64,000 bases of DNA. Source: Cellulosimicrobium cellulans. GTDB lineage: Bacteria > Actinomycetota > Actinomycetes > Actinomycetales > Cellulomonadaceae. A program made the position numbers and the translations under genes. Where the stretch lies: positions 3,286,001-3,350,000 of the forward strand of contig NZ_JAFBCN010000001.1 of assembly GCF_016907755.1 (NCBI RefSeq). The letters are read 5' to 3'. The notes beneath the pieces were generated by a model. The model had not been told where the DNA came from and searched no databases. It worked only from the letters and a program-made list of their open reading frames with translations. Shown here one piece after another: positions 176 to 20,533 of the stretch. Position 1 is the first letter of the stretch. Every line of letters starts with the position of its first letter.

Positions 176-413
176 GGATTCACTCGGCCTGACCGAGCAA
201 GTGTCGTCAACAAGCCGCGCGGCCCGGACCTACAACGACGCAGCCAGCCACGTGAGACGTCCTCTAAACCTCGCTTACGCCATCATCTGCTGGCGCAAAC
301 TCCCCGGCTAACCATTCTGAAACGAGCTCTCATAAGCCTTCCTCGGGTTGGGCCTTCGCGAGGACTTCCTCGGAACGCCACGCAGACACCCCCGCGCGCG
401 CCAGGATGGGGGT

Positions 414-848: not shown

Positions 849-863
849 GCCGCGAGACCTCCG

Positions 864-3510: not shown

Positions 3511-4916
3511 CACCTGGACCGGACGGCGTCGAGGAGCCAAGCTACGCCTTCCCCGGGCGCCGTGAACGTGCGGCCGGCCTGACGGGCGAGGATCTCCAGG
3601 CTCTCGCGGAGGACGATGAGGGCGTCGTCGAACGCCTCCTCGTCGAGCGCACGCTTGGCCTTCGCCTCCGCGAACTCGTTCGCGCACTGGGTCACATACT
3701 CTGCCGCGTCGGTCAGCCGCTCGGGTACCTGGGTCTGCCGCTTGACCAGTTCTGCGTTCTGCCCGGCCAGCTTCACAGCGAAGTCGAACGTCTCGCGTGC
3801 CTGCTTCACCACGGCAGATGCCCTGGCGACATCCTCCGGTGTCGCGCTCTTGCCATCACTCGCGATCGCCTTGGCGCGCAGAAGCTGGTCCGTGAGCGCT
3901 TCCGCTGCAGCCGAACTGCTGCTCTGACCCGGCAGGATCGCCCCGTGGATCCCCGGCACCGACAAGGGCTCCGCAGAGGCCACGCTGGGCTTGAGCTCCT
4001 CGGGGAGACGGCGCTCGAGGTAGCGGGTGTGGAAGTCCTCCTCGGCGAGTCGCAGGGACGTCTTCGGGTAGTCGAGCAGCACCATCGCGAGGCGCGACTG
4101 CTTGAGGCGGTTCGCGGCGTCGGAGTCGGTCGTAGCGAGCTTGGTGTAGTCGCGGTGGAGCTCGCGCAGCTTCTCCTGGTGCTGCTCGAAATCGATCAGC
4201 CGCAGGGAGGCGCCGTCAGCGGTCTTGCTGCGGTCGATCGCCTCGAGGATGAGTGCGTACACCCAGCGGTCCCGCTGGAGGGTCGCCAGCTTGATATTGA
4301 AGTCCTTGGCGACGTCGGCCTCCGAGCGCCCGCGGGCGAGCTCCTCGTCGATCGCGATCAGCCGGTTGATGTAGGAGTAGTCGCGCCGACGGTCCTTGCG
4401 GAGTTGCAGGGAGAGCTCGACATCGTTGATGTCCTGGCGCGAGGTGTCCTCGGGCAGGACGCCGACCCTGATGTTCGCGACACCGAGCTCCTTCAGCGCA
4501 GCGGCTCGGGTATTACCGTCCACGAGGATCCCGTGCGGGCTGACGATGCCCGGCTCACGCTGCCCGGAGTCGTCCAGCTCGTCCATGAGGGCGATGAAGT
4601 CGGGGTCGGTCTGGTCAGGGTTGGAGGGCCTCTGCTTGAGCAGGTCGCGGAGGTAGTCCTGGGCCTCCTGCCCCCAGGGGTCCTCGTCGAGGTTCTCGTT
4701 CCGCTCGGGGTCCAGCGTGCGCTGGGCGCGAATCCGGTGGGTGTCGGGGTTGAAGTAGAGCATCTCGACGGGCATCGAGATCACGTAGAGGTGCCGCTGC
4801 TCGCCGCGCCAGTCGATCGTGACCTTGGCACCGTCCTCAACCATCGCCTGCTTCAGCCGCTGGCTGATAATCTGCCTGATCTCCTCCCCCTTGGGAGGGA
4901 TGCCGAAGCCGGCCAT
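3510..4916 (-). CDS. ParB/sulfiredoxin-fold protein
   Basis: A 468-residue protein. The ParB-type motif HGILVDGNTRAAALKELG sits at residues 129-145 (GNTR at 134-137), followed by a helical HTH-like stretch (RRDYSYINRL, ADVAKDF) and a long charged C-terminal half. ParB/Srx folds bind CTP or ATP, and some act as nucleases. Away from a ParA gene they are found in defence and phage loci rather than chromosome segregation. ATG 4916 follows GAAGGAGAG with good spacing and is preferred over an upstream in-frame start at 4982. It is the first gene of the minus-strand operon ParB-like / SNF2 helicase / DUF3883 protein, transcribed divergently from the HNH-like gene at 5038. Function in the system is unknown. 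Confidence 0.7.
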   Translation of the reverse strand: MAGFGIPPKGEEIRQIISQRLKQAMVEDGAKVTIDWRGEQRHLYVISMPVEMLYFNPDTHRIRAQRTLDPERNENLDEDPWGQEAQDYLRDLLKQRPSNPDQTDPDFIALMDELDDSGQREPGIVSPHGILVDGNTRAAALKELGVANIRVGVLPEDTSRQDINDVELSLQLRKDRRRDYSYINRLIAIDEELARGRSEADVAKDFNIKLATLQRDRWVYALILEAIDRSKTADGASLRLIDFEQHQEKLRELHRDYTKLATTDSDAANRLKQSRLAMVLLDYPKTSLRLAEEDFHTRYLERRLPEELKPSVASAEPLSVPGIHGAILPGQSSSSAAAEALTDQLLRAKAIASDGKSATPEDVARASAVVKQARETFDFAVKLAGQNAELVKRQTQVPERLTDAAEYVTQCANEFAEAKAKRALDEEAFDDALIVLRESLEILARQAGRTFTAPGEGVAWLLDAVRSR

Positions 4917-5037
4917 GGAGGCTCTCCTTCTTGCTCGTGTTCGCGGCGAAAACTGGATCCCGCGCATCCTTGCAAAGGGCACCGACAGTTCTCAACAGAT
5001 CAGTAGGGTGAACGCCGTACGAGGGAGGCACAGCTCA
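4917..5037. promoter_or_regulatory. Divergent promoter region between two defence transcripts
   Basis: These 121 bases separate the ParB-like gene (minus) and the HNH-like gene (plus). Both start codons have good Shine-Dalgarno sequences: GAAGGAGAG before ATG 4916 and GAGGGAGG (5021-5028) before GTG 5038. Promoters for both transcripts must lie here or just inside the flanking genes. I see no clear -35/-10 pair or operator. Confidence 0.5.
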
Positions 5038-5730
5038 GTGCAGCAGCCAGCATGGGACGACCCGAGTGCGGGAGGGGCCATGATCCGCGGAGCGCTGTGG
5101 CTCGTGCAGATCATCGGCGAGGGCAACACCTTCACGAAGAACCAGCTGCGGGATGCCTTCCCAGGAGTTTCCCAGGTGGACCGCCGGATCCGGGACCTCC
5201 GCGACTACGGGTGGGTCGTGTACTCCAGCGCCGAGGACGCCACCCTTCTCCGCGAGGACCAGCGCTTTGTGAAGGCCGGCGTTCCTGTCTGGGACCCCAG
5301 GGCTCGGCGTGCGAACGCACCTGAGAAGGCCATGAGCGCCAAGGAGCGCCAGGCGGTGCTCGCCCGTGACGGGCACATGTGTACGCTGTGCGGCATCGCC
5401 GGCGGCGAGCCCTATCCCGACGACCCAATTGTGACTGCAGTGCTGGCAGTGTCCCGGCGCGCCGTCGTCTCGGACGACGGGCGGGAGAGCCAGGCACTGG
5501 TGACCGAGTGCAAGAGGTGCCGGTCCGGCGACGCCCCCGCGCCGCTGGACGCTCAGGGTGCGGTCGCCGCGGCCACTGACCTGAGCCCGGGCGAGCTGCG
5601 ACGGCTGCTCCGGTGGATGGAGCGGGGCCGCCGGGGCGCTACCGAGCTCGACCGGGCCTGGGCGGCATACCTGCGTGTGCCTCCCGACGAGCGAAGGCAG
5701 GTCGGGGAGCGGCTCCGCGAGGCCCAGTAG
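5038..5730 (+). CDS. HNH-like zinc protein with N-terminal winged helix
   Basis: A 230-residue protein starting at GTG 5038, nine bases after a strong GAGGGAGG. Residues 15-70 look like a winged helix (NQLRDAFPGVSQVDRRIRDL, DYGWVVY). Residues about 100-163 look like a degenerate HNH/zinc module: Cys115-x2-Cys118 in HMCTLCG and Cys158-x2-Cys161 in TECKRCRSGD. The central His-x2-Pro segment of active HNH nucleases is missing; VLAVSRRAV stands at the corresponding place. It may therefore bind DNA without cutting, or use a diverged active site. It ends 13 nt before the convergent methyltransferase gene. Winged-helix/HNH proteins are often the restriction partner of C5 methyltransferases, so it may be a second effector beside the NaeI-family enzyme. 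Confidence 0.6.
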   Translation: MQQPAWDDPSAGGAMIRGALWLVQIIGEGNTFTKNQLRDAFPGVSQVDRRIRDLRDYGWVVYSSAEDATLLREDQRFVKAGVPVWDPRARRANAPEKAMSAKERQAVLARDGHMCTLCGIAGGEPYPDDPIVTAVLAVSRRAVVSDDGRESQALVTECKRCRSGDAPAPLDAQGAVAAATDLSPGELRRLLRWMERGRRGATELDRAWAAYLRVPPDERRQVGERLREAQ

Positions 5731-5743
5731 CGGGACGCCGTCC

Positions 5744-6769
5744 TCAGGCAGCACCTTCCGACGCGATGCGGCTGTCCCGGGAAGCCCATCCGGGCTCGAG
5801 CGCGTCGCGGATCGCGATTCCCATCGCCCGCGCCACTGGTGGCGGGAACGCGTTGCCCATCGTCTTGTACGCGTTGGTCTTCCGAAGGACCTCGTCGATC
5901 TTCCATGTGTCGGGGAAGCCCTGGATGCGCGCGGCCATCCGCACGTTGAGCTTGAACGGCTTGCCTTCAGGCCAATTGGGTTCCGGGGCAACCCCATGGT
6001 TAGCCAGGCCGAGCCCGTCAACGCCGAGGCGCAGCCACTGCGCCCTCGCCCGGGTGGGGCCAAGATCGGCGCCGCCATGCTTTTCGGAACCGCCGACGAG
6101 CGTCGGCGCGATGGCAGTCGCCACCTCGGTGGCCCAGCGCTCGGCACCCTGCCAGCCGTTCGCCGCGACGAGGTCCTTGAGTGCCTCACCCACCGTGACG
6201 CGCGACCCGGCCGGGGTGACGGGTTCCGGCCAGACGAAGCGCTCGCGGTCCTGCGCGTCACGGAACGCCACGAGCACCGAGCGGGGCCGCAGCTGCGGAA
6301 CGCCGAAGTCGGCCGCGTAGACCATCTTCCAGACGGGGTCGCTGTAGCCGAGCTCCTCGAGCCGGTCGATTGTCTCCTGCCGCCAGCCCGCGAACTTGTC
6401 GTCCATGAGGCCCCTGACGTTCTCAAACATGGCGGCCCGCGGCCGGACCTCTTCGACCATGCGGAGCGCCTCGGGCCACAGGTTCCTACTGTCGGAGGCG
6501 CCCAGCTGCTTGCCCGCCTTCGATGCCGGGGTGCAGGGCACGCCGCCCGCCACGAGGTCGATGTCGTGGCCTCGGAATTCACGGAAGTCGACGTCGCGCA
6601 CGTCCTTACGCTCGACGCGCCACCCGGGCTCGTTCGCCTCGAGGATCTTGCATGCTGGCTCCCAGTACTCAACGAGCAGCTTGTGCTCGTAGCCCGCCTG
6701 CTCTAGGCCGAGCGCCTGGCCACCGGCACCCGCGCAGATTTCAATCGAGGTGAGGGAGCGGCTCGTCAT
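5744..6769 (-). CDS. dcm: DNA (cytosine-5-)-methyltransferase
   Basis: A 341-residue C5 methyltransferase that transfers a methyl group from S-adenosylmethionine to cytosine. Motif I is EICAGAGGQALGLEQAG (10-26), motif IV GGVPCTPAS with catalytic Cys79, motif VI FENVRG (Glu117), motif VIII region QLRPRSVLVAFR, and motif X GNAFPPPVARAMG near the C-terminus with IQGFPDTWKI just before it. The ATG at 6769 gives the canonical N-terminus. The target-recognition region is short, so the recognition site cannot be read from the sequence. NaeI-family nucleases are often paired with methylases of GCCGGC-type sites; that is a guess here. It is divergent from the NaeI-family gene (137 nt gap), and Vsr in the same island supports real 5mC formation. 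Confidence 0.92.
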   Translation of the reverse strand: MTSRSLTSIEICAGAGGQALGLEQAGYEHKLLVEYWEPACKILEANEPGWRVERKDVRDVDFREFRGHDIDLVAGGVPCTPASKAGKQLGASDSRNLWPEALRMVEEVRPRAAMFENVRGLMDDKFAGWRQETIDRLEELGYSDPVWKMVYAADFGVPQLRPRSVLVAFRDAQDRERFVWPEPVTPAGSRVTVGEALKDLVAANGWQGAERWATEVATAIAPTLVGGSEKHGGADLGPTRARAQWLRLGVDGLGLANHGVAPEPNWPEGKPFKLNVRMAARIQGFPDTWKIDEVLRKTNAYKTMGNAFPPPVARAMGIAIRDALEPGWASRDSRIASEGAA

Positions 6770-6906: not shown

Positions 6907-7854
6907 GTGCCGCCAAGACCGCCAGCCGTGACACCCGGGTCCATGTGCCAGCCAGATATGCGGAAGGGCGTCCGGGCGCCGGCCCACGTGATCCTCGATC
7001 CTCAGCAGGACTCGGAGCTCCAGGCGGTCTACCAGTGGCTGACGGCGCAGCCGGTCGAGGACCTCCTCCGGATCGCAGCCGATGACGCCGTGCAGTACGT
7101 GCTCGACGGGGCGCGCACGTGGCGGTTCGACCTGCTAGACCCGCGCGTCGACTCCGACGAGCGGTCGTCTGTGGGCACCAAGCTCCAGTACCACGTCATC
7201 GAGCGCCTCGGCCTGCAGAAGGTACCGCCCCTGGACACGGAGATAGCCGGGGTGCCCGTCGAAATCAAAGGCACCGTCAAGGACGCCACCGCGCCCTGGA
7301 TGATCCCGCGGGAGGGCCAGTGCCAGGTCACCCTGATGATCCGGATCGACCCGAAGGCCCACAGGTTCGCCGCGTGGCTCATGCGCACCCATCGGGCATG
7401 GCTCAGCGGCGGGAAGGGCAACCAGGACCTGAAGCGGTCGCCCCTGGTCGGCCCATTCAGGGCGTATGCCCTGCCGGTAGTGACGTGGGCCGACCTGCCG
7501 CCGCAGCCGCTGAAGCTACTCACGCTCAGCCAGCTCCAGACCGTCTTCGGGACCGACGGCCTCCGGAAGCGGGCCACGGCGCTGTTCCGGTTCCTGCCCG
7601 AGGTCGTGATCCCGCGGTCGGCACTGGCAACCGTCGGTGCCAACCTGGACGACCCCATGAAGCGGATCCGCGAGGCGAAGCAGACGCTCCGCGACCACCA
7701 TGACCTCATCGTGCTCGTAGGCAAGTGGGTCGACGAGCGGGCGGCAGCCCGCACCTTCGGGCACGTGATCGGTCCCGAGGACTGGGTTGCAGTCCCGCTG
7801 GCACGCTTTCTCGCTACCGGAATCACCGTGCCGCCGCTACGGCTCAAGGCTTGA
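6907..7854 (+). CDS. NaeI-family type II restriction endonuclease
   Basis: A protein of up to 315 residues matching the NaeI family. The core reads YVLDGARTWRFDLL (65-77), SSVGTKLQYHVIERLGLQ (87-104), LDTEIAGVPVEIKGT (109-123) and WMIPREGQCQVTL. This parallels the NaeI-family pattern in which an acidic residue, Asp-(x)8-Asp/Glu-x-Lys, forms the active site: Glu99, Asp110, Glu119, Lys121 here. The usual D-x-K is E-x-K, which PD-(D/E)xK nucleases tolerate. The C-terminal half would be the topoisomerase-like/effector DNA-binding domain. GTG 6907 is the longest start; ATG 6943 or 6958 are also possible and neither has a clear Shine-Dalgarno sequence. The gene is divergent from the C5 methyltransferase, as expected for a restriction-modification pair. 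Confidence 0.75.
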   Translation: MPPRPPAVTPGSMCQPDMRKGVRAPAHVILDPQQDSELQAVYQWLTAQPVEDLLRIAADDAVQYVLDGARTWRFDLLDPRVDSDERSSVGTKLQYHVIERLGLQKVPPLDTEIAGVPVEIKGTVKDATAPWMIPREGQCQVTLMIRIDPKAHRFAAWLMRTHRAWLSGGKGNQDLKRSPLVGPFRAYALPVVTWADLPPQPLKLLTLSQLQTVFGTDGLRKRATALFRFLPEVVIPRSALATVGANLDDPMKRIREAKQTLRDHHDLIVLVGKWVDERAAARTFGHVIGPEDWVAVPLARFLATGITVPPLRLKA

Positions 7855-8449: not shown

Positions 8450-10372
8450 TCAGATCTCGAGGTTCGAGAAGTAGCCGAGCGTCGGGTCCGCGAACGTCCC
8501 GACCACCATGCCGCGGTCGAGGAAGCGGTTGAACTCCTCGCAACTCGTCTCCGGAAGCAACGCGCATCCGTGACAGGCCGCCATGTTGCATGAATCGGGA
8601 CCTTGCCCCCTCTCGCCGGCGTCCATGCACACCGGATCGGTGGAGCACCACTGCGCGTCTCTGACGGCAGCGCCGACGACTGCCCGGAGTTTCTCGGGCC
8701 GCGCCATGCGAACGAGCCCGCCCATGGTGCCCTCCGAGTCGCCGGCCGCTGTGTAGATGAGCAGGCCGGCCATTTCGCGACCGGGCATAGTCGACGCGTA
8801 CAGGCGCTCCCGAAGCGATGCCGAGCTGTAACCGCACTCGAACACAAGCTCGTTGATGAGCAGGTGTCCAAGGGTGTGAAGGAGGATGAACCGCGGGCTC
8901 AGCACTCGCTCTTGAAGGCCCCGCTGCGTGGCAACATGGCCGTACTGCTTGGCAATCTTGTCCGCGCGCGCTTGGATCTCGGCGCGACTCTCCCAGCGGG
9001 ACAGCTCATCTCGATCGAGTTCCACGTAGATGCCCTCGCCCTTGACGACATAGGCCGGGAGCCAGTCCTGAAGAGGCGGGAGGGAGTCGCGACGGAGCAG
9101 CGCCTTCCCCTCGCTCAGCTTCAGCACGTCGTCGCGGACACGTGTGAATCCTCGCAGGGCCCGCGTCTCGCGAAGCACGTTGACAGACCGAACGCGGCCG
9201 AGGTGGCGGCGCAGGCCATCGTCAATCCCGGGATCCTTCCCGGCGAGGAAGTCGTCCTTAGGCTCCTCCCTGATCTTCAGATACTCGGGGTGTCTCCACT
9301 CGTCATCTCCGGTAAGAAGTTCCGATTCACCAGATGACTCAGCGGACTCCGGCTTGGGGGTACCTACGCCGAAGAAATCGAGGTAGCCGGCCCACAACTC
9401 CTCGTCAGTGATCGGCCTGAACAGCTCTGCCGGCACGTTCCGCTCGAGAGACTTGCGGAGCATCTCGATAGTCACGGAACCCTCAAACGCATCGTGGAGC
9501 GTGCGCAGCGTCGTGCTGACGGCGGGGTGACGCAGCAGCTCATGCATCTCGGCCGAGACCGCGCCCTCCACGCGGGGCAGGTAGATGGAAGACTCCACCT
9601 TCGGGAAGTAAACGTTGCCTGCTGCACGCAGGGCACCACGAATCGGCTGGTCGCACGGGCCATTTTTTTCGGCTAGCCAAGGCCGCGCCCCGGGGCAGTA
9701 GTACGGCTCGGATGGGCCGACGAGACGTTCCGTGAGCGCGGTGCTCTCGTTCCCCGAGACGTCCCGAGACGGTTCCGTAATGCCGCGGAGCGAGCGCTCC
9801 TTGCCGCACTTGTCGCACTTGACGACCTGGCCTTCAAGGCCTCCACCGCCTCGGGAGGTGAGCCGGAGGACGCCCGCACACCCCGGCTGATGGGAGTGGT
9901 GAACCCACTTGTCGAAGGGAAAGTCGTCGAGGTGACCCTTGCTGCAGATCGCGACGAACGGCACCTGCGCCATCTTTGGCTTGTACTTCCAAGTCGCGTG
10001 CGACGAGTCCTTGCACTCCTCTTGCTGGCGCATTGTGAGGGTGCTCTTCTTGAGCCGCTTGCAGTACGGACAGAAGCACCAAAGAGGGAAGCGCAGCACC
10101 GGAACCGTCAGTTTCACGTTGCGCTGATCGGTGCCGGACCCTGAGTACCGGTAATCCGGCGGCAACCGGAACTCAGAAACGCGCAGGCGGGACTCAAGCC
10201 TCCAGTCATGTTCCTGATACTCCTCGAGCGCCAGGATGCTCCCTGTGTGATCGAACTCGTACCAGTGGTCGAGGCCAGCGGTGATGACCGATGTGCCGTT
10301 GACTAGAACGCTCATCGCGCCGACGCCGAACGGCGTGACGAGCTGCGCTCGTCGCATGTTCCCCGTACTCAC
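8450..10372 (-). CDS. drmB: DISARM-type protein DrmB (DUF1998)
   Basis: A 640-residue protein with DrmB hallmarks: the N-terminal MRRAQLVTPFGVGAM, several zinc-binding pairs (CFCPYC near residue 90, CDKCGKE near 190), and the C-terminal DUF1998 domain with LHTLGHLLINEL, CGYSSASLRERLY, EGTMGGLVRMARPEKL, GQGPDSCNMAACHGCALLP and SCEEFNRFLDRGM. In DISARM, DrmB works with the helicase DrmA against incoming phage DNA. The start is GTG 10372, overlapping the drmA stop as GTGA. It is the last gene of the five-gene operon 18,018-8,450. No phospholipase D gene (drmC) follows it; the next sequence downstream is the broken HNH gene. Family assignment is strong; the role in this variant is inferred. Confidence 0.9.
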   Translation of the reverse strand: MSTGNMRRAQLVTPFGVGAMSVLVNGTSVITAGLDHWYEFDHTGSILALEEYQEHDWRLESRLRVSEFRLPPDYRYSGSGTDQRNVKLTVPVLRFPLWCFCPYCKRLKKSTLTMRQQEECKDSSHATWKYKPKMAQVPFVAICSKGHLDDFPFDKWVHHSHQPGCAGVLRLTSRGGGGLEGQVVKCDKCGKERSLRGITEPSRDVSGNESTALTERLVGPSEPYYCPGARPWLAEKNGPCDQPIRGALRAAGNVYFPKVESSIYLPRVEGAVSAEMHELLRHPAVSTTLRTLHDAFEGSVTIEMLRKSLERNVPAELFRPITDEELWAGYLDFFGVGTPKPESAESSGESELLTGDDEWRHPEYLKIREEPKDDFLAGKDPGIDDGLRRHLGRVRSVNVLRETRALRGFTRVRDDVLKLSEGKALLRRDSLPPLQDWLPAYVVKGEGIYVELDRDELSRWESRAEIQARADKIAKQYGHVATQRGLQERVLSPRFILLHTLGHLLINELVFECGYSSASLRERLYASTMPGREMAGLLIYTAAGDSEGTMGGLVRMARPEKLRAVVGAAVRDAQWCSTDPVCMDAGERGQGPDSCNMAACHGCALLPETSCEEFNRFLDRGMVVGTFADPTLGYFSNLEI

Positions 10373-13300
10373 AGAATCTCGTCTCCCAGTTCGGCGTCGG
10401 CCATCGCATACGCCTGCGAGATCTGCAGGCGGCACTCCGCATCAACGTTGCGCATGCTCGTCGGGACATCCCAGATTGGCGTCTTCGCATCAAGGTCAGG
10501 GAGGGTGCCCGCGTACCGCATGAGCCCCTGCTTCGGGTTGCCGCCGATCACGTTCGCCTCCCACTCCGTCCGTTCCCAGGCCTCCCACTGTTGGGATCGC
10601 TTGGCGGCAAGGATGTCGAGGACGGGCAACTCGCCTTCGTCAGCGATCTCCGCCCGCGTCCGAAGGAGCTCAATCGCCGCGTCGTACTCCTCGCGAGGAA
10701 ATGGGTACGGCTCAGCGGTGGGCGCAACTTGCCTGATGTAGGCCACGGCAGCTCCGTGAAGTGCTCGCCGGAGCACCGGAGTGGCGAATGGCGTCACCGA
10801 GGTTGGTTCGACCTGTGCGTACAGCTGCTGGTGGTATGTCCTGAACCGTTCGTAGTGGCTTCGGTCACGAGGCTTTGCGGCACCGTATATGGTGATGACC
10901 AGGCCCGGACTGACTTCTGGCTTTCGCCCGACACGACCACTCACCTGGATGTACTGCGCCGTGGTCTTGGGCTGTCCGACAATCGTCATGAGCCCAAGGC
11001 GGTCGATATCTACGCCGACCTCGATGATGTTCGACGCAAGGCAGATGTCGACGCACGAGTCATCATCGACACGAATCTGCAGTTGCTCGATGGCCTTAGG
11101 GATCTCGTCGCTCCGTCGACGCGAGGTCAGTTCCATCGTGTTCCTGGGCCAGCGCGGATCGATCTCGTCACGACGACGGAGGGCAGTGAGGTAGTCGGGG
11201 ACGTCCGACTCGAGAAGGGAAACGGTGTTCCCGAGCTCGCGAAGGCTGTTTAGGAAGTTGAGATTAGTCCAGTAGCCGTCGCGGTCAGCCTCGGAGATCG
11301 AAGCGCCGGCCTGGAGCGTCGACGCCGCTACGCGGACCTGGACCGTCTGCATGGACCCAAGCGAGGAGCTCATCACGCCGAGGTAGCGCCGCCCGGGTGC
11401 TGGTGACCCATCCGACTGGGCCTCCGGCTCAGCGAAGAACGAACGACCTTCCTCAAGTCCGTGGGGTGGAAACAACGCCACCTCCGTCCTGCCGAACAGG
11501 CCGCGTATCTGGTGCTCGTAGCGACGCACAGTTGCGGTTGACGCAATGATCTTCGGGGCAACTGGCGCCGGACCACGCCTATCGGTACAGAGCTCATCGA
11601 TCACCGGCTCATAAAGCCCGACCATCGATCCCAGCGGCCCGGAGATCAGGTGCAGCTCGTCCTGGATGATCACACTCGGTGGCGAGACCTCACGGACGCC
11701 GTCGTCGCCGAGGCCGAAGATGCGCCGCGCCTCTGGCCTCCAGGCCATCATGGCGAACTTGTCGACAGTTCCAATGATGATCGATGGACGCACAGCGTAG
11801 ATGTCTTCATCGACGACGTGAACCGGCAGCCCCTTACGTCCCGTGAACCGACAAGCCGGGTCGATGCACCGGAGTACCACCTTGGTTCCGACCTGCTCGT
11901 AACCGATCACCTCCTGCTGACTGCCCTTCTGCTTTGTGCCCATCTGGGCACCGCACCAGGGGCAGCGCAGCAGCAGGAACTTGTTCTGGGCCTGTGGGCT
12001 GCGTCTGAGCTGCTTCAGCGAATCAACCGCTTGGGTCCACCGGTTCGGTGTGGATGATCCACCGAGCCAGATTCCGATCCCGAATGGCGTATCGCCCAAC
12101 TTTTCGGGGGCCTTCGAGCGCAGGTCCTCGAGCACGCAGACCAGTGCTGACGCCCGCAGGAACTGCTGTGCAGTGAGCAGCCGGAGTGTGTACCTCATCA
12201 GTGTGTCAGTGCCCGCGTCGTCCTTGTTGCGGAGACGACGGGCGAGCAGGGAGACGGCCGAGGCGCCGAGGTATGCCTCGGTCTTGCCTCCGCCCGTCGG
12301 AAAGTAGATGAGATCGACGAGCTCGCGCGCAGCGTGAGACGGATCAATCAACTCGGGCAGGCTCGCCAGGATGAAGCCAATCTGGAACGGGCGCCACTGA
12401 CCCTGACCGGGCTGAGGAGCCGCCGCCGGGTGCGCGCCAGCGACGCGCCAGATCTTGTCCTTCCCCTGCTCCACCTCGCGGAGTGGCAACCGCGACCGCA
12501 CCTGCTGCTGGAGCATCGCCTCGTTCGCGAGTTTGAAGGCGTCGCTCGCTAGGGATGGCGTCGTGACGAGCTTCCAGCCTTCCACCATGCGACAGAGCGC
12601 TTCCCTACAACGACGAACGTGGTCGCGTGCCGCTGGGTGGAAATGCGCCGGGAGGTCGTCTATCTGACCCTCAAGTCCACCGATCCACTCCTCGTATAGT
12701 CGCAGCACGGTCTCAACCTGCTCGCGGCCGTCATCGCTGCCAGCGGCGAGTGCTGCCATGCTCACCGTCACCGCGCGGCGATTTGAACCTTCTCCGATGT
12801 ACACGTTTGGAGTCAGGCTGACTACCTCATAGACGGGGATCGGGTCCGCTTCCACCCAGGCGCTCGAAGTGCTGGCCTCGGAAGTTGGATCGGCCCACGA
12901 TGCCGCGCACCCATGCCCAATTGCATATGTCAGCTTGTGCCTGTAGAGGAGCGCGATCGATTGCTCCTCGTCATCCCCCTCTGGCTGTTCGACGTCCGGG
13001 TAGGGCTCGATCGCCAGGCCTTCTCCAGCCGACGCACGGAAGCTGACTTGGAACAGAGCGCTCGCCGAACCGCTTCCGACTGTCTGGTTGGCGACAGCAA
13101 CCGTCACCAGCCGCAGGTCATGGCCAGCTTCGCCTGGAACGGGGCGGCTGAAGACCTGAGTTATCGGCTTTAGTCGCGGCTGCTCTGGTCCCGAAGCCAC
13201 GGACATCGGGATGTTCATCAGCTTGTTGACGGATCCAAGCAACAAATCGGCGGGAACGGATCCACTGATCACGAACGGGACCCTGACCCACCAGTCCTGA

Positions 13301-13842
13301 GCTCGGGCGACCCCCGGGATCTCCGCTGCGACTTTGTCGTAGTAAGCGCCACGGACTTCGATGTTGAGGGCGCCTCCCGCCGAAACGCGACATTTGAACG
13401 ACACCGCCATCGCGGACGGCTTGAAGTGATTAGCGTCTGAGAGATCGAAGTCGTCCGAGTCTGGCTCGTCGGAGCGAGGCGTGCCCTTCAGCCCCGTTGG
13501 CTCGACGGACGGGTCCTCCGGGCTATTAGCGAGCCCCGGTACCCAAGACACATCGATGTCGGGAATGCCAGTCGCCGGCTCCGCGATGGACGTCCCGCTG
13601 GCTGCTGCTCCGCTGTAGAGAACTCCGATGCCGTATCGCTTCAGCGGCTCCGTCTGCGTGAGAATTTCCTCAAGAGTCGTTGCGTCGTGAAACACACCGC
13701 GGCTCTCCTCGGCGGTGGGGAACTTCACCTTCCTGACCGAGCAGTCGATAGGCTTGCCCTGCGGCCCCTGGCCCGAAATTGGGCCGAACAGCTCCCGCCG
13801 TACGGCGTCCTCGACGATCTGTCGTGCCTCAATCCCCGTCAT
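10369..13842 (-). CDS. drmA: DISARM-type helicase DrmA
   Basis: A 1,157-residue superfamily 2 helicase. Walker A is YFPTGGGKTEAYLG (about 510-523), Walker B is the DrmA-type IIQDELHLISGPLGSMVG (about 723-740), motif III STATVRR, motif V SNIIEVGVDIDRLGLM and motif VI QYIQVSGRVGRK (about 960-971). A zinc module (CPWCGAQM ... CIDPACRF, about 629-660) is inserted between the lobes. The ~500-residue N-terminus matches the long non-catalytic region of DrmA. ATG 13842 overlaps the preceding stop as ATGA, and its own stop overlaps drmB. DrmA with DrmB forms the DISARM core that grips phage DNA. It sits in an operon with a NERD helicase and two unknown proteins rather than DrmC/DrmMI/DrmMII. Confidence 0.9.
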   Translation of the reverse strand: MTGIEARQIVEDAVRRELFGPISGQGPQGKPIDCSVRKVKFPTAEESRGVFHDATTLEEILTQTEPLKRYGIGVLYSGAAASGTSIAEPATGIPDIDVSWVPGLANSPEDPSVEPTGLKGTPRSDEPDSDDFDLSDANHFKPSAMAVSFKCRVSAGGALNIEVRGAYYDKVAAEIPGVARAQDWWVRVPFVISGSVPADLLLGSVNKLMNIPMSVASGPEQPRLKPITQVFSRPVPGEAGHDLRLVTVAVANQTVGSGSASALFQVSFRASAGEGLAIEPYPDVEQPEGDDEEQSIALLYRHKLTYAIGHGCAASWADPTSEASTSSAWVEADPIPVYEVVSLTPNVYIGEGSNRRAVTVSMAALAAGSDDGREQVETVLRLYEEWIGGLEGQIDDLPAHFHPAARDHVRRCREALCRMVEGWKLVTTPSLASDAFKLANEAMLQQQVRSRLPLREVEQGKDKIWRVAGAHPAAAPQPGQGQWRPFQIGFILASLPELIDPSHAARELVDLIYFPTGGGKTEAYLGASAVSLLARRLRNKDDAGTDTLMRYTLRLLTAQQFLRASALVCVLEDLRSKAPEKLGDTPFGIGIWLGGSSTPNRWTQAVDSLKQLRRSPQAQNKFLLLRCPWCGAQMGTKQKGSQQEVIGYEQVGTKVVLRCIDPACRFTGRKGLPVHVVDEDIYAVRPSIIIGTVDKFAMMAWRPEARRIFGLGDDGVREVSPPSVIIQDELHLISGPLGSMVGLYEPVIDELCTDRRGPAPVAPKIIASTATVRRYEHQIRGLFGRTEVALFPPHGLEEGRSFFAEPEAQSDGSPAPGRRYLGVMSSSLGSMQTVQVRVAASTLQAGASISEADRDGYWTNLNFLNSLRELGNTVSLLESDVPDYLTALRRRDEIDPRWPRNTMELTSRRRSDEIPKAIEQLQIRVDDDSCVDICLASNIIEVGVDIDRLGLMTIVGQPKTTAQYIQVSGRVGRKPEVSPGLVITIYGAAKPRDRSHYERFRTYHQQLYAQVEPTSVTPFATPVLRRALHGAAVAYIRQVAPTAEPYPFPREEYDAAIELLRTRAEIADEGELPVLDILAAKRSQQWEAWERTEWEANVIGGNPKQGLMRYAGTLPDLDAKTPIWDVPTSMRNVDAECRLQISQAYAMADAELGDEIL

Positions 13843-15536
13843 GCTGCACCTCCAAGTGCTGCTCGGTACGTGCCTGCCTCGATGTAGGCGACGAGGCGAT
13901 CCGTCGCTCGGGTGAGTGCGACATACAGGACAGAGTCAAAGTTGGCCACAGACCCGTTATCCAGATCTGTCACGACGACGGCGGGTGCGTCCAAGCCCTT
14001 GAAGGAATGGACGGTTCCGAACCGAACTCTGCCGGGTTTCGCCGGACGCCCGTTTATCGGCTGCAATACCTGTCGAAGCCAAGGGTCGGTTGCGAGGCTC
14101 GCGGTCGAACAGTCTCGCAGGGGGCTCAGGACCACGATCTCGTTGAGGTCATATCCCTCGTCCTTGAGCATCCTGAGCGTTACCACCAGGTGGGACTGCT
14201 GCTCGTTGCTGTCCTTATACGAGATGAGCGTCGGATCAACGCCATCGTCCTGTCGGCGGAATCTCCGGTACCCAGGGTTGAGGCCTGAGAAGAGATTGAC
14301 CTGGTACCCGATCCTCGGCAGGTTCCGACAGTTCTCAGTGAGGCGCATATGAACGAGGTGGGGTGCGCGAGCGCGCAGTGTGTCTCGCCCGTCAGCGGCA
14401 GAGAACAGAGCCTGACGCTCGAAGTCTCCAAACGCGAGGATGCGCCCACCAGCGAGACCACCCTCGACTATCAGGTCAAGCACGTCGAGATAGCGCTCAG
14501 ACACCAGGTCCTGGACCTCATCCACGACGAGGAAGTCGCTGGCTGGCTCGTCGGTCGCAAGTAGAGCCTCAATGGCCCGGTCCGGAAGCTCTTCCTCCCA
14601 GTAGGTCGAATCGGCGTTCGGCGGAGCAGTCTCGCCAGCGAGACGAAGCAACTCTTGGTGGAAGGTGCCGACACGAAGGCCCGACAGGGTAGACATCTCA
14701 GTGGCGAGGTGCACGCCGAGGAATCGGTTGAAGCAGAAGAGTTGCCCATTGCTCCCTTGGGCGACTTCGCGCCGAGCTGCTTCAGCGGCCAGAAAAGTCT
14801 TGCCGGAGCCCGCGGGACCCGTGAAGAGAACGGCGTGGTTGTCAGACATCGAGTCCAACGCCTGATACTGCTCCTCGACAAACTCCACGAGTTGCTCGCG
14901 GCGGGCGCGTCGGACGTCTCCGTGAACAGCAGCGATCTCGAAGCGCGGCCGCAGTGCCGATACCACGCGGGCCGCCAGGTCCGCCGACGGACCGGTGCCG
15001 TACGCGGCGTACCCGCCGCGCTTCTCACGCAGATGGAGTGCGCCAGCAGTGAGCGTCCGACGGACCGCTTCTGCGGCATCGATCCGCAGGTCCTCGGAGT
15101 CGAGGACCTGCCAGGGATGCCATTCGACCGACTCTGGAAGCGTTGTACGCGCGCGCACATGCGTGAACCAGACCGAGTAGGGCATCGCGACGTGATCGAG
15201 ATCAATGCCCTTGCGCTTGAGATAGCCGCCGATCGAGTACCTGGCCTCGCGTGCTTGCTCGAACGGTCCTCGCTTCTTTGGTGCGTCGTTGCCGAGCACC
15301 CATAGGCCGTCATCACGTCGCCTGACGGCTAGGTGCGACTTCACCTCGATGACGAGGATGCCAGCGTCGGGTGCGACCACAACAAAGTCAGCCTCGCCCT
15401 CGACCTGGTGCGTGTGACGTGCGATGCCCATTGAATGCAAGACGACCCAGTCGTCCGTAGCACGGTCAGTCGCGAGCGCTGTGTAGAGCGCCTTCTCGCC
15501 CGGGGGCGCATCCTCCGGGCAGAACGCGGGGATCAT
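13839..15536 (-). CDS. NERD-domain nuclease/superfamily 1 helicase
   Basis: A 565-residue protein. Residues about 1-130 form a NERD (nuclease-related) domain: EGEADFVVVAPDAGILVIEVKSH shows the D ... E-x-K core typical of this PD-(D/E)xK-like family. Then comes a UvrD/Rep-like helicase: Walker A FTGPAGSGKTFLAAEAA (about 236-252), Walker B FLVVDEVQDL (about 331-340), and late motifs GTVHSFKGLDAPAVVV and LYVALTRATDRLV. ATG 15536 gives a 4-nt ATGA overlap with the upstream gene, matching all other junctions, and is preferred over the in-frame ATG at 15545. Its stop overlaps drmA. It may supply the nuclease activity that phospholipase-D-like DrmC would provide in classical DISARM; that is an inference. 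Confidence 0.82.
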   Translation of the reverse strand: MIPAFCPEDAPPGEKALYTALATDRATDDWVVLHSMGIARHTHQVEGEADFVVVAPDAGILVIEVKSHLAVRRRDDGLWVLGNDAPKKRGPFEQAREARYSIGGYLKRKGIDLDHVAMPYSVWFTHVRARTTLPESVEWHPWQVLDSEDLRIDAAEAVRRTLTAGALHLREKRGGYAAYGTGPSADLAARVVSALRPRFEIAAVHGDVRRARREQLVEFVEEQYQALDSMSDNHAVLFTGPAGSGKTFLAAEAARREVAQGSNGQLFCFNRFLGVHLATEMSTLSGLRVGTFHQELLRLAGETAPPNADSTYWEEELPDRAIEALLATDEPASDFLVVDEVQDLVSERYLDVLDLIVEGGLAGGRILAFGDFERQALFSAADGRDTLRARAPHLVHMRLTENCRNLPRIGYQVNLFSGLNPGYRRFRRQDDGVDPTLISYKDSNEQQSHLVVTLRMLKDEGYDLNEIVVLSPLRDCSTASLATDPWLRQVLQPINGRPAKPGRVRFGTVHSFKGLDAPAVVVTDLDNGSVANFDSVLYVALTRATDRLVAYIEAGTYRAALGGAA

Positions 15537-17059
15537 TCGAGCCACTGAGCACCTGCATCCTCGAAGGGAACCCGGGCGTCATGGCGCATCTGGATCTCCT
15601 TAAACGGCGCGATAGCCAGGATCTTCGTCGCAACGATCGGCCGCGCACCCTCTGACGTCGTGAGCGCCAACTGGAGGTGGCCCGTCGACTCGAGGCCGCT
15701 GAGGTCGGCCGCCGCCACGGCAGCCTCCAGCCCTCTCCGAACAGCCGCGTTCGCCTTGTGTACCGCATGCCGCAGCTTCGTCGCGTTCCCAAGGGTCGGC
15801 TCAGCTGAGACGCCGAGCCAGCGAAGCGTTAAGCGCATGTCCTCATCACGGTTGGGACGTACGAAGCTCGGGTCGGTCCACGCGCGAGCCTGCTCGCTCG
15901 CCTTCACGCCGAGCTTCGAGAGCCGCCGAACGACCTCGCCCTTGCCGAGGTCATCGAGGCGACGCGCGAGCGCACATTTCCAGGCGGCCTGCGTCTCGGC
16001 GATACCGTCCGCCGCGCTTCCCAACTCCCGCAACGCCGACTCGTAGAGGGCACCTCGCTCTCCGGCGCCGATCCGCAGGAGCAGGTAGGTACCGGGCCTG
16101 ACCGACGACACCTCCGTGTACGTAACACGTTCTCGCGCGGGTTGGCGCGGCTCAAGCGTTCGGATCCGCTCTCCGTCATCCAGCCACATGGCGAAGCCGC
16201 CTGCAAGCAGCACCTTCCGAGCCTCGACTTCGTCAACACCTGGGGGTCGCGTGGCGGTCTTTCTTTCGCCCCAGACCGGCTCGGGCAGTAGGTCGTCCTC
16301 GACGGCTGATTCCTCACCGTCGACGCGCCCGCCGTCTGGCGCGGCCTGAACACCGCTAGTGAAGTGCCGGGGTCGGATGCGGATGGCCCCTTCGGCGTAC
16401 TCAGCGATCGCGGAGGCAGGAACGGTCCGGTCACGGAACCACTCGGGAAGCAGGAACCCCAACTCGCCGGTCACGGGAGCCGTAACGAGTGAGGAACGGA
16501 AGAAGCGAGGCGGCCCGACAGCGTACGTGACCTCGCGGTCCGGCTGCCGACGTTCAAGATCGCCGGGGGTCAGCACGAGCGCTCCATGCGGTGCGAGCCA
16601 CTCGTGCATCGCTGCCTGCGCAGCTCCATTCATTGCAACGACCACGCAGTTCTCTACCACAACCTCCTCGATAGACTCGAGCAGCAAGCAGCCCACGGGA
16701 GGGTCGCTCACAGCGACAGCCTCGGCAGACATTCGCAGCTCATCAATCAGCCCCAAGTCAGCGACTGCGCCTCGCAATCGCCTGCACTGATCAATCACCT
16801 TCGCGACGGCTTCAGGCAGTGCTGGGTTGACCGCGATGGGCGCCGGATGCGCAAGCATCTTCCATCGAAGCGATTTTGCTGCACCGATGAGGTCGTCCCA
16901 GAGCCCGTGCCCATCGTCGCTAGCAACGCGCAGGAGCGATCGGACCGTCGAGTTGAACGCAGCGCCCGTTGGGTCGCCGACGCTTATGATCTCTAGTCCA
17001 TTCCGGGTCAGGTCGGCGACTGCCCGGTACCGCTGGTTGAGCAGTGCGACGGTTGTCAC
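15533..17059 (-). CDS. Unknown protein of the drm operon (possible DrmE C-terminal-like)
   Basis: A 508-residue protein without a motif I can name. The N-terminal half has mixed alpha/beta stretches (VVVENCVVVAMNG, HGALVLTPGDLERRQ). The C-terminal third has a pattern of spaced tryptophans and charged helices (AAWKCALARRLDDLGKGEV, KASEQARAWTDPSFVRPN) that resembles the C-terminal part of DrmE-like DISARM proteins as I remember them; a profile comparison is needed to confirm. GTG 17059 overlaps the preceding stop as GTGA, and its own TGA overlaps the NERD helicase start. Together with the preceding 320-residue protein the combined length (~830) is near that of a DrmE-type protein, so the two genes could be a split DrmE. 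It has no membrane segment or signal peptide. Confidence 0.55.
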   Translation of the reverse strand: MTTVALLNQRYRAVADLTRNGLEIISVGDPTGAAFNSTVRSLLRVASDDGHGLWDDLIGAAKSLRWKMLAHPAPIAVNPALPEAVAKVIDQCRRLRGAVADLGLIDELRMSAEAVAVSDPPVGCLLLESIEEVVVENCVVVAMNGAAQAAMHEWLAPHGALVLTPGDLERRQPDREVTYAVGPPRFFRSSLVTAPVTGELGFLLPEWFRDRTVPASAIAEYAEGAIRIRPRHFTSGVQAAPDGGRVDGEESAVEDDLLPEPVWGERKTATRPPGVDEVEARKVLLAGGFAMWLDDGERIRTLEPRQPARERVTYTEVSSVRPGTYLLLRIGAGERGALYESALRELGSAADGIAETQAAWKCALARRLDDLGKGEVVRRLSKLGVKASEQARAWTDPSFVRPNRDEDMRLTLRWLGVSAEPTLGNATKLRHAVHKANAAVRRGLEAAVAAADLSGLESTGHLQLALTTSEGARPIVATKILAIAPFKEIQMRHDARVPFEDAGAQWLE

Positions 17060-18018
17060 AGCGCCACCGTGAACGAAATGCCCTCGACACCCGCCGGCGC
17101 GCTCCAGCCGAGGTCGCGGCTCAATGACACCGGCGTACCACGAGTGTTCCGCAGCTGAATGAGGATCTCGGCGGCGGAGTCGTCGGCAACTGAGCGGTCG
17201 ATAACACAGATGATCACAGGGGCCTCTATCTCTGCCGTGTACTTGATCGCACCCGAACCGTCCAAGACGACCGCCTCGACGTCCGACGGCAGCGGCAGCT
17301 GTTCAGCGAACTTTGCCGCCGAGTAGAGCCGCGTTGCCCATGTTGCGGCTCCTTCATCGTCGGGGAGAACGATGTCTGCAAGGGTGCCGTAGCCGACAAG
17401 ACTTCCATTCGTACGACGCTCTGCCGCCTGGTACGCCTGTGCACGCGTCGGCGCCATCACAAGTCCAGGCTCGGTGCTTACAAAAGCCGACAGGTCCTCT
17501 CGCAGCCATGCCTTCGTGCCGACGACAGCCAGATCAGCAATCGGGGCCGATAGCCGCGAGTCCCATGTCTCTTCAAGACGCGCGAGCACCCCAAGGGTTC
17601 CGGGCACCGGCTTTGGGCTCCGTCTTGGCGTCTCGGTAGCTGGCGCCGGAGAAGCGGCGACGATGACCTGCGCGAGCAGGGTGGGTCCACGCAACTGGAC
17701 GCGGGATGAGGTCCGGCTTGCGTCGACCCTGACGAGAGTGTCGTGAATGACCTCGGTTTTCGTGACTAGACGTACAGCGGAGTTGCTTGGCAACGACCTG
17801 AGGACATCAACTGGGTCATCGGCATGTAGAGCGGGGTTGGTCATCGTCCAGCCACACGCAACGAGAGCCGCAGCGAACTCCCGGCGCGGGACGGAGACCG
17901 CAACGATCAGCTGCCGACCGCGGTTGCACTCGACGTAGCGGCGCGTCCTTGTGCCAAGGGCGAGCATTGGGCCGATCCACTCCGCCGGGACGGCAGGGAC
18001 CGTCGGATCATCCGTCAT
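17056..18018 (-). CDS. Unknown first protein of the drm operon
   Basis: A 320-residue protein starting MTDDPTVPAVPAEWIGPM at ATG 18018; an upstream extension to 18168 is possible but looks unlike protein. No catalytic motif is recognisable. It contains alternating strands (RQLIVAVSVPRREF, VRLVTKTEVIHDTLVRVDA, PTLLAQVIVAASP) and a middle section with LVMAPTRAQAYQAAERRTNG and IVLPDDEGAATWATRLYSA reminiscent of a sensor/receptor or phosphotransfer-like fold. The stop overlaps the next gene as GTGA, so it is translated with the 508-residue protein. About 210 bases upstream separate it from the preceding gene on the same strand, so the operon promoter probably lies at 18,019-18,228. No promoter motif stands out. 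Confidence 0.55.
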   Translation of the reverse strand: MTDDPTVPAVPAEWIGPMLALGTRTRRYVECNRGRQLIVAVSVPRREFAAALVACGWTMTNPALHADDPVDVLRSLPSNSAVRLVTKTEVIHDTLVRVDASRTSSRVQLRGPTLLAQVIVAASPAPATETPRRSPKPVPGTLGVLARLEETWDSRLSAPIADLAVVGTKAWLREDLSAFVSTEPGLVMAPTRAQAYQAAERRTNGSLVGYGTLADIVLPDDEGAATWATRLYSAAKFAEQLPLPSDVEAVVLDGSGAIKYTAEIEAPVIICVIDRSVADDSAAEILIQLRNTRGTPVSLSRDLGWSAPAGVEGISFTVAL

Positions 18019-18228: not shown

Positions 18229-19644
18229 CTACATGGGCGGAAGTGCCACTACATGGGTCTGCGACTTGCCGCCTTGGCGCAAAGGGATGTCGCCATACCG
18301 ACGAAGCCTGTCCTGCTCGCGCGACATCTCGACGACCTTCGTGAACCGGTCGCGCCGCGGCCCGCCCTCCACTGGCATCGACACCTCCGTGGCCGGCGCC
18401 AACGCCTTCACTGCCGTAAAGAGGTTCGGGTGGTTGCGGCCGTCGATCGGCTCGTACTTCCGCACCGCTCGCCGCACACCGCCAACGCCGACTCCTGACA
18501 GTGAAAGTTCGTTCCAGACGAAGTACCGCCGCTGATCGATGCCCTGCCTGACCCGAACGGCAAGGCACGCGTCGGTCATCGTGAAGAGCCGACGCAGCCA
18601 CGCGAGCTGGTCACCGCTGACTGGCTCCCCCGTTCCGACAGCGTCTTCCATCGCGCGCTGCGCGGCTTCAGCGTCCACGACGGCGCCCAGGCCACGGCCA
18701 GCGGCGCCTGCCACGCGCTCCATTAGCATCCCGAGGAGCTTCTGATAGTTCTCGGCGCGCCTCGCGAATTGGATCGCCAGGTCGTGGGCCTCGACCGCCT
18801 CAGCCGCCCTAGTGACGAGAGCGGACACCAGCCGCTGCGCGCGTACGATCGCGATCAGCGAGTCCACGGACGGAAACTCAGCCCCGAGCCCGACAAGCAG
18901 GTTGTGCTGGGCCGCGATCGCGCCATCGAACCCGAACGGGTAGGGCATCCGCAGGAGCGCCGACAGTGGCCGGTACCCAAGCCGGTCGACGGCGCTGGCT
19001 TCGGCGTCGGTGACGCCCGCCGCCCACTGGCTGCAGAGCTGCGCGGCGGACAGCGCGGAGTCGACGAGGTGAGGCACCTTCGTGGAGAACGAGTCCTGCC
19101 ACTTCGACTTCGTGCTGAGGCGCTGCCAGCCGGGTAGCGGGAAGTACCGGGCGTCGAGCGCTATCAGCGCCCAGGTGAGGTCAGCGGCGTCTCGCAGCAG
19201 GACGCGTGCGTCGTCGAACCGGACCCTGTCGGCGACGGCGGGCAGCTCGCGCTCGCGTCCGGTCATCGCGGCCACCGCGGCTCTGCGCCACGTCTCGGTG
19301 AGTCGGGTGTCCTGCACCGCGGCGAGCTCGGCGGCGTTCACGCCGCGCCCGCCGGGAAGTGCATCCGTCCTGGGCTGGTCCGTCCGAAGCCAGTGCAGCA
19401 GGCGGTGCGGTGTCTCCCAGCCGTCGATGACGTGGACGGGTGTCGCAGCCTCGGTGACCGCCAGCGCGTAGTCCCAGATCACCTTGCGATAGCGCAGGAT
19501 CCTCGCCGTCGCGGCGGCGCGTTCCCCGGCCGTCGTCGTCGCCTTGCGGTTGCCGTTGGCGCCGCCGAGGTAGAACGACGGTCGGCGCATAGCGAGGAGT
19601 TGCGTCATCGACGCATGCAGCGCACTCGTGACCTGGCCGTACAT
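18229..19644 (-). CDS. Unknown helical protein coupled to the integrase-like gene
   Basis: A 471-residue, mostly helical, alanine- and arginine-rich soluble protein starting MYGQVTSALHASMTQL. The ATG at 19644 overlaps the stop of the integrase-like gene as TGATG, so translation is coupled. I looked for the catalytic residues of a tyrosine recombinase (Arg ... His-x-x-Arg ... Tyr) that could continue the truncated integrase and did not find them. There is a long coiled-coil-like middle section (VSALVTRAAEAVEAHDLAIQ, ENYQKLLGMLMERV). A longer upstream frame (to 20109) is a shadow of the integrase-like gene. The protein could be an accessory recombination or island-maintenance protein, or an unrelated defence component; nothing seen decides this. 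Confidence 0.6.
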   Translation of the reverse strand: MYGQVTSALHASMTQLLAMRRPSFYLGGANGNRKATTTAGERAAATARILRYRKVIWDYALAVTEAATPVHVIDGWETPHRLLHWLRTDQPRTDALPGGRGVNAAELAAVQDTRLTETWRRAAVAAMTGRERELPAVADRVRFDDARVLLRDAADLTWALIALDARYFPLPGWQRLSTKSKWQDSFSTKVPHLVDSALSAAQLCSQWAAGVTDAEASAVDRLGYRPLSALLRMPYPFGFDGAIAAQHNLLVGLGAEFPSVDSLIAIVRAQRLVSALVTRAAEAVEAHDLAIQFARRAENYQKLLGMLMERVAGAAGRGLGAVVDAEAAQRAMEDAVGTGEPVSGDQLAWLRRLFTMTDACLAVRVRQGIDQRRYFVWNELSLSGVGVGGVRRAVRKYEPIDGRNHPNLFTAVKALAPATEVSMPVEGGPRRDRFTKVVEMSREQDRLRRYGDIPLRQGGKSQTHVVALPPM

Positions 19645-20294
19645 CACGCACGGTCCAGAGCCGGGTGGGAGGTGTGTTCGGGGTTGTTCTCCCACTCGCG
19701 GTCGAGGACATCCCGGATCGAGAGGACGGCGCGGTTGTCCAGATCGAACGCGCAGAGCGCGGTGATTGCGGCGCGGGCCGCCGCGTAGTGCACGGGCGGG
19801 GAGCTCGTGGCCGGCTGCTCGGCTGAGGGCCGGTTCATCGGGTCGTGCAGCGAGTCGAGGACCTGCAGCACGAACCAGTAGTCGGTCAGGCTGGTCGCCG
19901 GAACTGTCTTGGCCAGTGCGACGAGGTGCGTGCGCGCGATGCCGTAGAGCAAGTAGTTGCGCCCGATCGACGGCTCGACATACACCGCCAGCCACCGGAC
20001 GTAGTTGCGGCGCGTCGCGGGAGCCAGCGTCCGCGACTCGACGTACTCCGAGGCCCACGCCGACAGCGTCAGCTTGCGCACGACCTCGCGCTGGTTCGGC
20101 GGACGCCACTCGCTGCGGTCGACGAGCTTGCGCTCCTCCACGAGCCAGATCTGCGCGGAGAGCTTGTCGCCGAACGTCCGGGTGTACCGCTTGCCGTCCG
20201 GTCCCCAGTAGCGAGCCCGGGCACCGATGATCTTGTTGTTGGTCTTGCTGCGCCGAGACTCAACGGAGCCAAAGCCACCCTTAGGCACGGTCAC
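19644..20294 (-). CDS. Integrase-like protein lacking the catalytic domain
   Basis: About 216 residues. The N-terminus (VTVPKGGFGSVESRR, GARARYWGPDGKRYTRTF, SAQIWLVEERKLVDRSEW) is the AP2-like arm-binding domain of actinobacterial tyrosine integrases. The next part (LTLSAWASEYVESRTLAPAT, RRNYVRWLAVYVEPSIG, LVALAKTVP) is the SAM-like core-binding domain. The catalytic domain (Arg, HxxR, Tyr) should follow but is missing; a different helical segment ends at the TGA overlapping the next start. GTG 20294, seven bases after GGAAGG, is preferred; an upstream TTG at 20426 would add 44 unlikely residues. The gene abuts the 3' end of tRNA-Val, as functional integrases do. Either a decayed integrase, or a protein that has kept only DNA binding. 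Confidence 0.65.
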   Translation of the reverse strand: MTVPKGGFGSVESRRSKTNNKIIGARARYWGPDGKRYTRTFGDKLSAQIWLVEERKLVDRSEWRPPNQREVVRKLTLSAWASEYVESRTLAPATRRNYVRWLAVYVEPSIGRNYLLYGIARTHLVALAKTVPATSLTDYWFVLQVLDSLHDPMNRPSAEQPATSSPPVHYAAARAAITALCAFDLDNRAVLSIRDVLDREWENNPEHTSHPALDRA

Positions 20295-20341
20295 CACCGC
20301 CTTCCAGACGGTAGGTGCGCGGTGGATGTCGCGAGTCCCGT

Positions 20342-20409
20342 GGGGCTGTGGCGGGGCTGTGGCGGGGCTGTAGAGCCCCACGAGGGTCCTTTTCGGTCCG
20401 CGAGGGTCC
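20342..20409. repeat. Short tandem and direct repeats between integrase-like gene and tRNA-Val
   Basis: An 11-base unit GGGGCTGTGGC is repeated about 2.5 times at 20342-20370, ending in a six-base-pair hairpin GGGGCT-GTAG-AGCCCC (20364-20379). Then CGAGGGTCC occurs at 20381-20389 and again at 20401-20409, 20 bases apart on the same strand. Pairs of short direct repeats next to the tRNA attachment site are typical of integrase arm-binding sites. This assignment is a guess from position. Confidence 0.45.
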
Positions 20410-20459
20410 ACGAAGCCCATCAGCAAACGTGCAGGTCAGAGAGGAAACACCCCTGGTGG

Positions 20460-20533
20460 TGGGCCCGGAGGGACTCGAACCCCCGACATCCACGGTGTAA
20501 GCGTGGCGCTCTAACCAGCTGAGCTACAGGCCC
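20460..20533 (-). tRNA. tRNA-Val (anticodon UAC)
   Basis: Read on the minus strand this is a complete cloverleaf: acceptor GGGCCTG pairing with CGGGCCC, D-arm TAGCTCAGCTGG, anticodon stem CCACG/CGTGG around loop CTTACAC (anticodon TAC), T-arm with GGTTCGAGTCC. The discriminator A and an encoded CCA follow (20457-20459). The 3' end faces the defence island, making it the probable attachment site. Confidence 0.95.

Follow-up and report, generated by a model that had tools for sequence, protein, structure and literature searches.

In a 64,000-nt stretch of Cellulosimicrobium cellulans DNA (the window, to whose positions all coordinates refer; L-numbers denote loci of relatives), five minus-strand genes, drmE1-drmE2-NERD helicase-drmA-drmB, lie at 8450..18018. 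The cluster very probably serves in defence against viruses, as a relative of DISARM (defence island system associated with restriction-modification). With a probability of about 75%, we interpreted it as a new variant of class 2 DISARM with a split DrmE, a NERD helicase and a neighbouring C5-cytosine methyltransferase, its function being predicted from the sequence.

Each gene overlaps the next by 4 nt (GTGA or ATGA), as the earlier note on this DNA had stated and the open reading frame (ORF) coordinates confirmed. The first two genes encode proteins of 320 aa (U1; 17056..18018) and 508 aa (U2; 15533..17059). The third (13839..15536; 565 aa) is a fusion of a NERD nuclease and a superfamily 1 (SF1; UvrD-like) helicase, with PF08378 and PF13538 above cut-off. 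It is followed by DrmA (10369..13842; 1157 aa), a short form of this superfamily 2 (SF2)/YprA-family helicase, which scored 685.6 bits with the PADLOC DrmA model and matched the DrmA chain of PDB entry 7s9v (7s9v_A) at E 2.5e-136. Its 826.5 bits with NF038325 were below the cut-off of 950, yet it was clearly homologous. DrmB, the DUF1998/MZB zinc-binding partner (8450..10372; 640 aa), gave 433.6 bits with NF038324, against a cut-off of 240, and matched the DrmB chain of the same entry (7s9v_B) at E 1.4e-65. The identities of these three proteins given in the earlier note were thus supported by Pfam, PADLOC or NCBIfam matches, and the general DISARM core of DrmA helicase and DUF1998 protein is present.

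The first two proteins were the ones for which no relative had been proposed. Neither passed a DrmE model of PADLOC, NCBIfam or Pfam, the sole match being a sub-threshold one to DrmE_C. By curated model, no single-gene DrmE was found in the operon or in the window's own genome; a DrmE search of 396 genomes of the phylum gave three with a match, one of them above cut-off, and the window's genome was not among them. On the other hand, long single genes at three related loci (L066, L068 and L075) passed the NCBIfam DrmE model NF038316 with 181, 539 and 175 bits (cut-off 80). The U2 proteins of Nostoc and of L012 aligned with positions 393-802 (E 3.6e-18) and 301-789 (E 7.8e-7) of the DrmE model, both below cut-off. 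The U1 proteins tested gave no match to the NCBIfam model.

In profile-profile comparison with four DrmE proteins (L066, L068, L075 and L077, the last scoring 262.9 bits), the U2 profile aligned with DrmE 361-888 (P 4e-23, probability 99.5%) and the U1 profile with DrmE 72-325 (P 7.7e-5, probability 61.8%). With a wider U1 set the probability was 51.7%, and 64.7% against only the N-terminal part of DrmE. The controls were null, whether reversed profiles (P 0.32 for U1 and 0.67 for U2), the NERD helicase (P 0.14) or the wrong halves of DrmE (P 0.32 and 0.2). From this tiling, together with gene position and order, we interpreted U1 and U2 as a DrmE encoded by two genes, firmly for U2 and with moderate confidence for U1. 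A DrmE homologue, a feature of class 2 DISARM, would accordingly be present in two pieces, which places the system with that class. The view of the two proteins as new components was not supported, since fused relatives passed the DrmE model and the profiles tiled onto DrmE; the idea that they replaced DrmC or methyltransferases was rejected. DrmE models of PADLOC and NCBIfam miss both window halves, so that such systems may well be misfiled.

An 801-aa protein at L088 was also considered as a DrmE and rejected, as it belonged to no NCBIfam family and U2 failed to align with it. Its inclusion in the DrmE set gave lower scores for U1 (probability 3.9, P 0.011; in a second run 15.4, P 0.0017). 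The comparison given above was redone without it, and its label in the DrmA tree (fusedE_noNERD) is to be disregarded.

The AlphaFold models suggested that U1 and U2 are two RecA-like folds lacking a P-loop, that is, a dead helicase. U1 appeared as a RecA1-like fold, part of which resembled an Sm-like barrel, with no GKT at the P-loop position, and U2 as a RecA2-like domain with inserted helices followed by the DrmE C-terminal region. This reading came from a second look by VIA-align; Foldseek against the PDB returned no match at E <0.001 for either half. A sequence search of the PDB gave nothing convincing for U2 and nothing for the NERD helicase.

The relation of split to fused forms was seen in a DrmA tree of 67 rows, a quick tree in which several rows were long. 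Rows were included if the DrmA piece exceeded 1000 bits (L018 was among those excluded), and 13 plasmid rows hand-picked from 87 records were added. The split-DrmE rows formed one clade of 53 (Shimodaira-Hasegawa-like approximate likelihood ratio test, 99), sister to three rows with a fused DrmE and NERD. The clade includes L081 of Priestia, where DrmE is in three pieces and there is no NERD gene. On this tree the split apparently had a single origin.

The operon is conserved and widespread across phyla. A scan of genome contigs with the NERD-helicase alignment yielded 63 loci, whose neighbouring genes were assigned by profile searches. In 52 of them drmA directly follows the NERD helicase; in the other 11 no drmA was seen in the available DNA, three of these contigs being shorter than 10 kb. 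Separate U1 and U2 genes occur in 48 of these 52 and one long gene in three (L066, L068 and L075), while L028 is truncated where its contig ends. DrmB was seen in 51 (partially in L068), the contig of L025 ending ahead of drmB. Frames are broken in genes of several loci, most of all in L018. The hosts are Actinomycetota, Pseudomonadota, Chloroflexota, Myxococcota, Bacteroidota and Zixibacteriota, with Cyanobacteriota and Deinococcota added by plasmids. Such recurrence of the gene order in several phyla is not attributable to chance. The survey that the earlier note had called for thus agreed with its view of a distinct, conserved DISARM-like arrangement.

U2 was matched in four of the 296 genomes of the class, the window's own counted, and in three plasmid records, one of Rhodococcus opacus and two of Nostoc HK-01. 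The R. opacus plasmid pROB02 carries the five-gene set adjoined by NaeI, Vsr, HNH and C5 methyltransferase genes. Elsewhere in the genus, one of 16 further genomes had a DrmA match at E 1e-50, a partial one of 33% identity. A scan of viral contigs found one distant NERD helicase only, without DrmA.

The NERD helicase is the sole candidate nuclease of the operon. Its nuclease residues D50, E64 and K66 and helicase residues K246, D339, E340 and R543 were invariant in 53 of 53 rows, from which both activities are probably intact. This column count left out L047 and L063, which nearly duplicate L046 and L037, as well as L065 and L071, where the NERD match is split over frames. It replaced a regular-expression test that was too strict (NERD E-x-K in 36 of 54, Walker A in 44 of 54). 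No DrmC or other phospholipase D (PLD) protein was found in ten window proteins searched with DISARM models (nine also with Pfam) or in five further proteins, the rest of the genome being unsearched. The flanks of relatives (142 ORFs) showed no PLD family with more than one member in the best 25 of 51 families. This is in line with the proposal that the NERD-SF1 helicase serves as nuclease instead of DrmC. According to the available parts of PMC9142583, DrmC is dispensable and often absent.

The NERD helicase does not always precede drmA. On two Rhizobium plasmids and one Azospirillum plasmid it comes after drmB, the DrmE slot being occupied by a UvrD-family helicase, and in Nostoc it is also located after drmB. 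In four plasmid loci (L082, L083, L084 and L086) a UvrD-family helicase takes the place of DrmE beside DrmA-DrmB, and in three of the four a NERD helicase follows; these may represent a further DISARM arrangement that has no name yet. The window's genome was also noticed to have a second NERD helicase gene elsewhere (L001; G000:C1:4710535-4710810).

The C5 methyltransferase lies 1.7 kb downstream of the operon (5744..6769, minus strand; PF00145, E 2.6e-59), where the earlier note had placed it. Between them is a gene not listed there, encoding a NaeI-family restriction endonuclease (6907..7854, plus strand; PF09126, E 2e-26). The best PADLOC models for the methyltransferase were DruM2 and MTase_II (DruM2 410 bits), and the best DrmMII score was 106 bits. 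The endonuclease and the methyltransferase are presumed to be an ordinary type II restriction-modification (R-M) pair. NaeI and NgoMIV share the site GCCGGC.

Methyltransferases were counted in 55 non-redundant operon loci, L047 and L063 being dropped as near copies. A C5 methyltransferase was present in the flanking DNA of 42, on the same strand within 500 nt in 24, and directly upstream of U1 in many loci. None was seen at 12 control NERD-helicase loci without DrmA, some of them short; the background rate of any PF00145 gene was 16 of 29 related whole genomes. From 263 flanking ORFs picked, the 142 that were 120-950 aa long and no more than 1.25 kb away were scanned, excluding the window, L007, L008, L047 and L063. 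Among the best 25 of 51 families, 32 of these ORFs matched C5 methyltransferase, 6 AIPR, 6 Vsr, 2 NgoMIV and 1 NaeI models. The earlier suggestion that self/non-self discrimination does without an operon methyltransferase is not borne out as a rule by these counts; its alternative, a borrowed methyltransferase, fits the window, where the enzyme pairs with the NaeI-type endonuclease. We interpreted the C5 methyltransferase as probably marking self for the operon while also serving the NaeI-type enzyme. DrmA V1133 aligned with Serratia DrmA V1296 (position in the PDB chain), the methylation-sensing residue proposed in the available parts of PMC9142583.

Another explanation would be that the operon assists a resident type II R-M system such as the NaeI-type one, for instance by processing cut DNA, and is no independent defence system. 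In BLAST clustering of 57 loci (excluding L010, which was treated as the contig of L043), a Vsr family occurred in 27 and a NaeI-like family, linked to the window protein, in 11 (8 by direct phmmer). NgoMIV- and MvaI/BcnI-type enzymes were found near other loci. However, no NaeI-like gene was detected in the flanking DNA of the remaining 46 loci, and the many methyltransferase genes directly upstream of U1 also speak against such dependence, which we consider unlikely. It is quite unlikely, too, that the NERD helicase hitch-hikes in the operon as a defence or repair gene with a role of its own. The 11 relatives without a visible drmA, and the alphaproteobacterial and Nostoc plasmids with the gene after drmB, would be expected of a hitch-hiker. 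On the other hand, the gene overlaps both neighbours by 4 nt in the window and the order is constant across phyla, and its repeated association with drmAB in differing orders argues for joint function.

A wholly distinct DISARM-like type, with both upstream proteins new and not related to DrmE, is very improbable. It would account for the failure of either window protein to pass a DrmE model and for the 52-65% that U1 reached by itself. The single-gene forms in the same slot nevertheless passed the curated model, the U2 match was collinear and near full-length, and fused and split forms were sister clades in the DrmA tree. For U2 this alternative is largely refuted.

A class 2 variant with a split DrmE would work as follows. 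DrmA-DrmB would load onto invading unmethylated DNA with free 5' ends, as described for Serratia DISARM in the available parts of PMC9142583. DrmE1 and DrmE2 may pair into a single helicase core without catalytic activity, which would hold DNA or regulate DrmAB. As motor and nuclease, the NERD-SF1 helicase would be recruited to degrade the DNA in place of DrmC, and cytosine methylation by the neighbouring methyltransferase, here of the NaeI-type pair, would label host DNA as self. More generally, and only tentatively, DrmE might be a dead SF2-type helicase workable as two polypeptides. This lineage might then read 5-methylcytosine made by exchangeable methyltransferases, among them enzymes of resident GCCGGC-type R-M systems (NaeI, NgoMIV), and the NERD-SF1 motor nuclease might be the executioner instead of DrmC.

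We know of no function established for DrmE. In the available parts of PMC9142583 its role is left to future work, and the DISARM nuclease is unsettled since DrmC is dispensable. Both questions could be tested in this lineage, with its split DrmE, readable pseudo-helicase fold and invariant NERD active site and with no DrmC found.

A perfect 43-bp direct repeat, into which the 3' end of tRNA-Val (20457-20533) extends, bounds 25.7 kb containing the operon, the NaeI-type pair and downstream genes. One copy is at 20455..20497 and its partner is 5.2 kb beyond the window. We read this stretch as an integrated island. Between tRNA-Val and the operon (18229-20426) is a 260-aa ORF that by eye resembles an N-terminal piece of an integrase, with no Pfam or PADLOC match. 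The same interval codes for a protein directly upstream of U1, which had no relatives among the loci compared.

A second recurring module lies by the operon at 336-5730, and parts of it recur near L027, L029, L035 and L036. It comprises an HNH-like protein (so named for its resemblance to an annotated gene of R. opacus), a SNF2 helicase (1684-3510), a 281-aa protein, Vsr (336-845) and, in our own reading with no Pfam match, a putative ParB-like protein. The SNF2 protein scored 55 bits with ZorD, 45 with DpdE and only 29.6 with DrmD. Near the operon in seven Pseudomonadota or Myxococcota relatives (L048, L053, L056, L061, L062, L070 and L072) there is a family of about 700 aa, the L056 member of which is an AIPR abortive-infection protein.

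DISARM class 1 consists of DrmD, DrmMI, DrmA, DrmB and DrmC, and class 2 of DrmE, DrmA, DrmB, DrmC and DrmMII. With class 1 (e.g. L091-L093 as annotated) the operon shares the DrmA-DrmB core, whereas it is without DrmD, the MmeI-like methyltransferase and DrmC, and its DrmA is in another clade. Pfam, PADLOC and NCBIfam scans of the operon proteins found neither DrmD nor the adenine methyltransferase DrmMI. The plasmid loci L082, L083 and L084 likewise combine DrmA, DrmB and a NERD helicase, but there a UvrD-family helicase fills the DrmE slot, NERD comes after DrmB and DrmA belongs to a different clade.

TALON, as described in the available parts of PMC12458937, also pairs a YprA-family helicase with a NERD nuclease. 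Its helicase is ARMADA-like and accompanied by TPR-CSD and TBP genes, whereas here the helicase is DrmA, with DrmB, and no TPR, CSD or TBP family was found among the window proteins scanned. Identity with TALON was therefore rejected. The available parts of the literature searched held no named subtype with this gene set, no split DrmE and no NERD-bearing DISARM. From class 2 DISARM it differs in the two-gene DrmE, the added NERD-SF1 helicase, the lack of any DrmC found and a methyltransferase closer to DruM2 and type II models than to DrmMII. With that class it has in common the homologues of DrmA, DrmB and DrmE and a C5 methyltransferase nearby.
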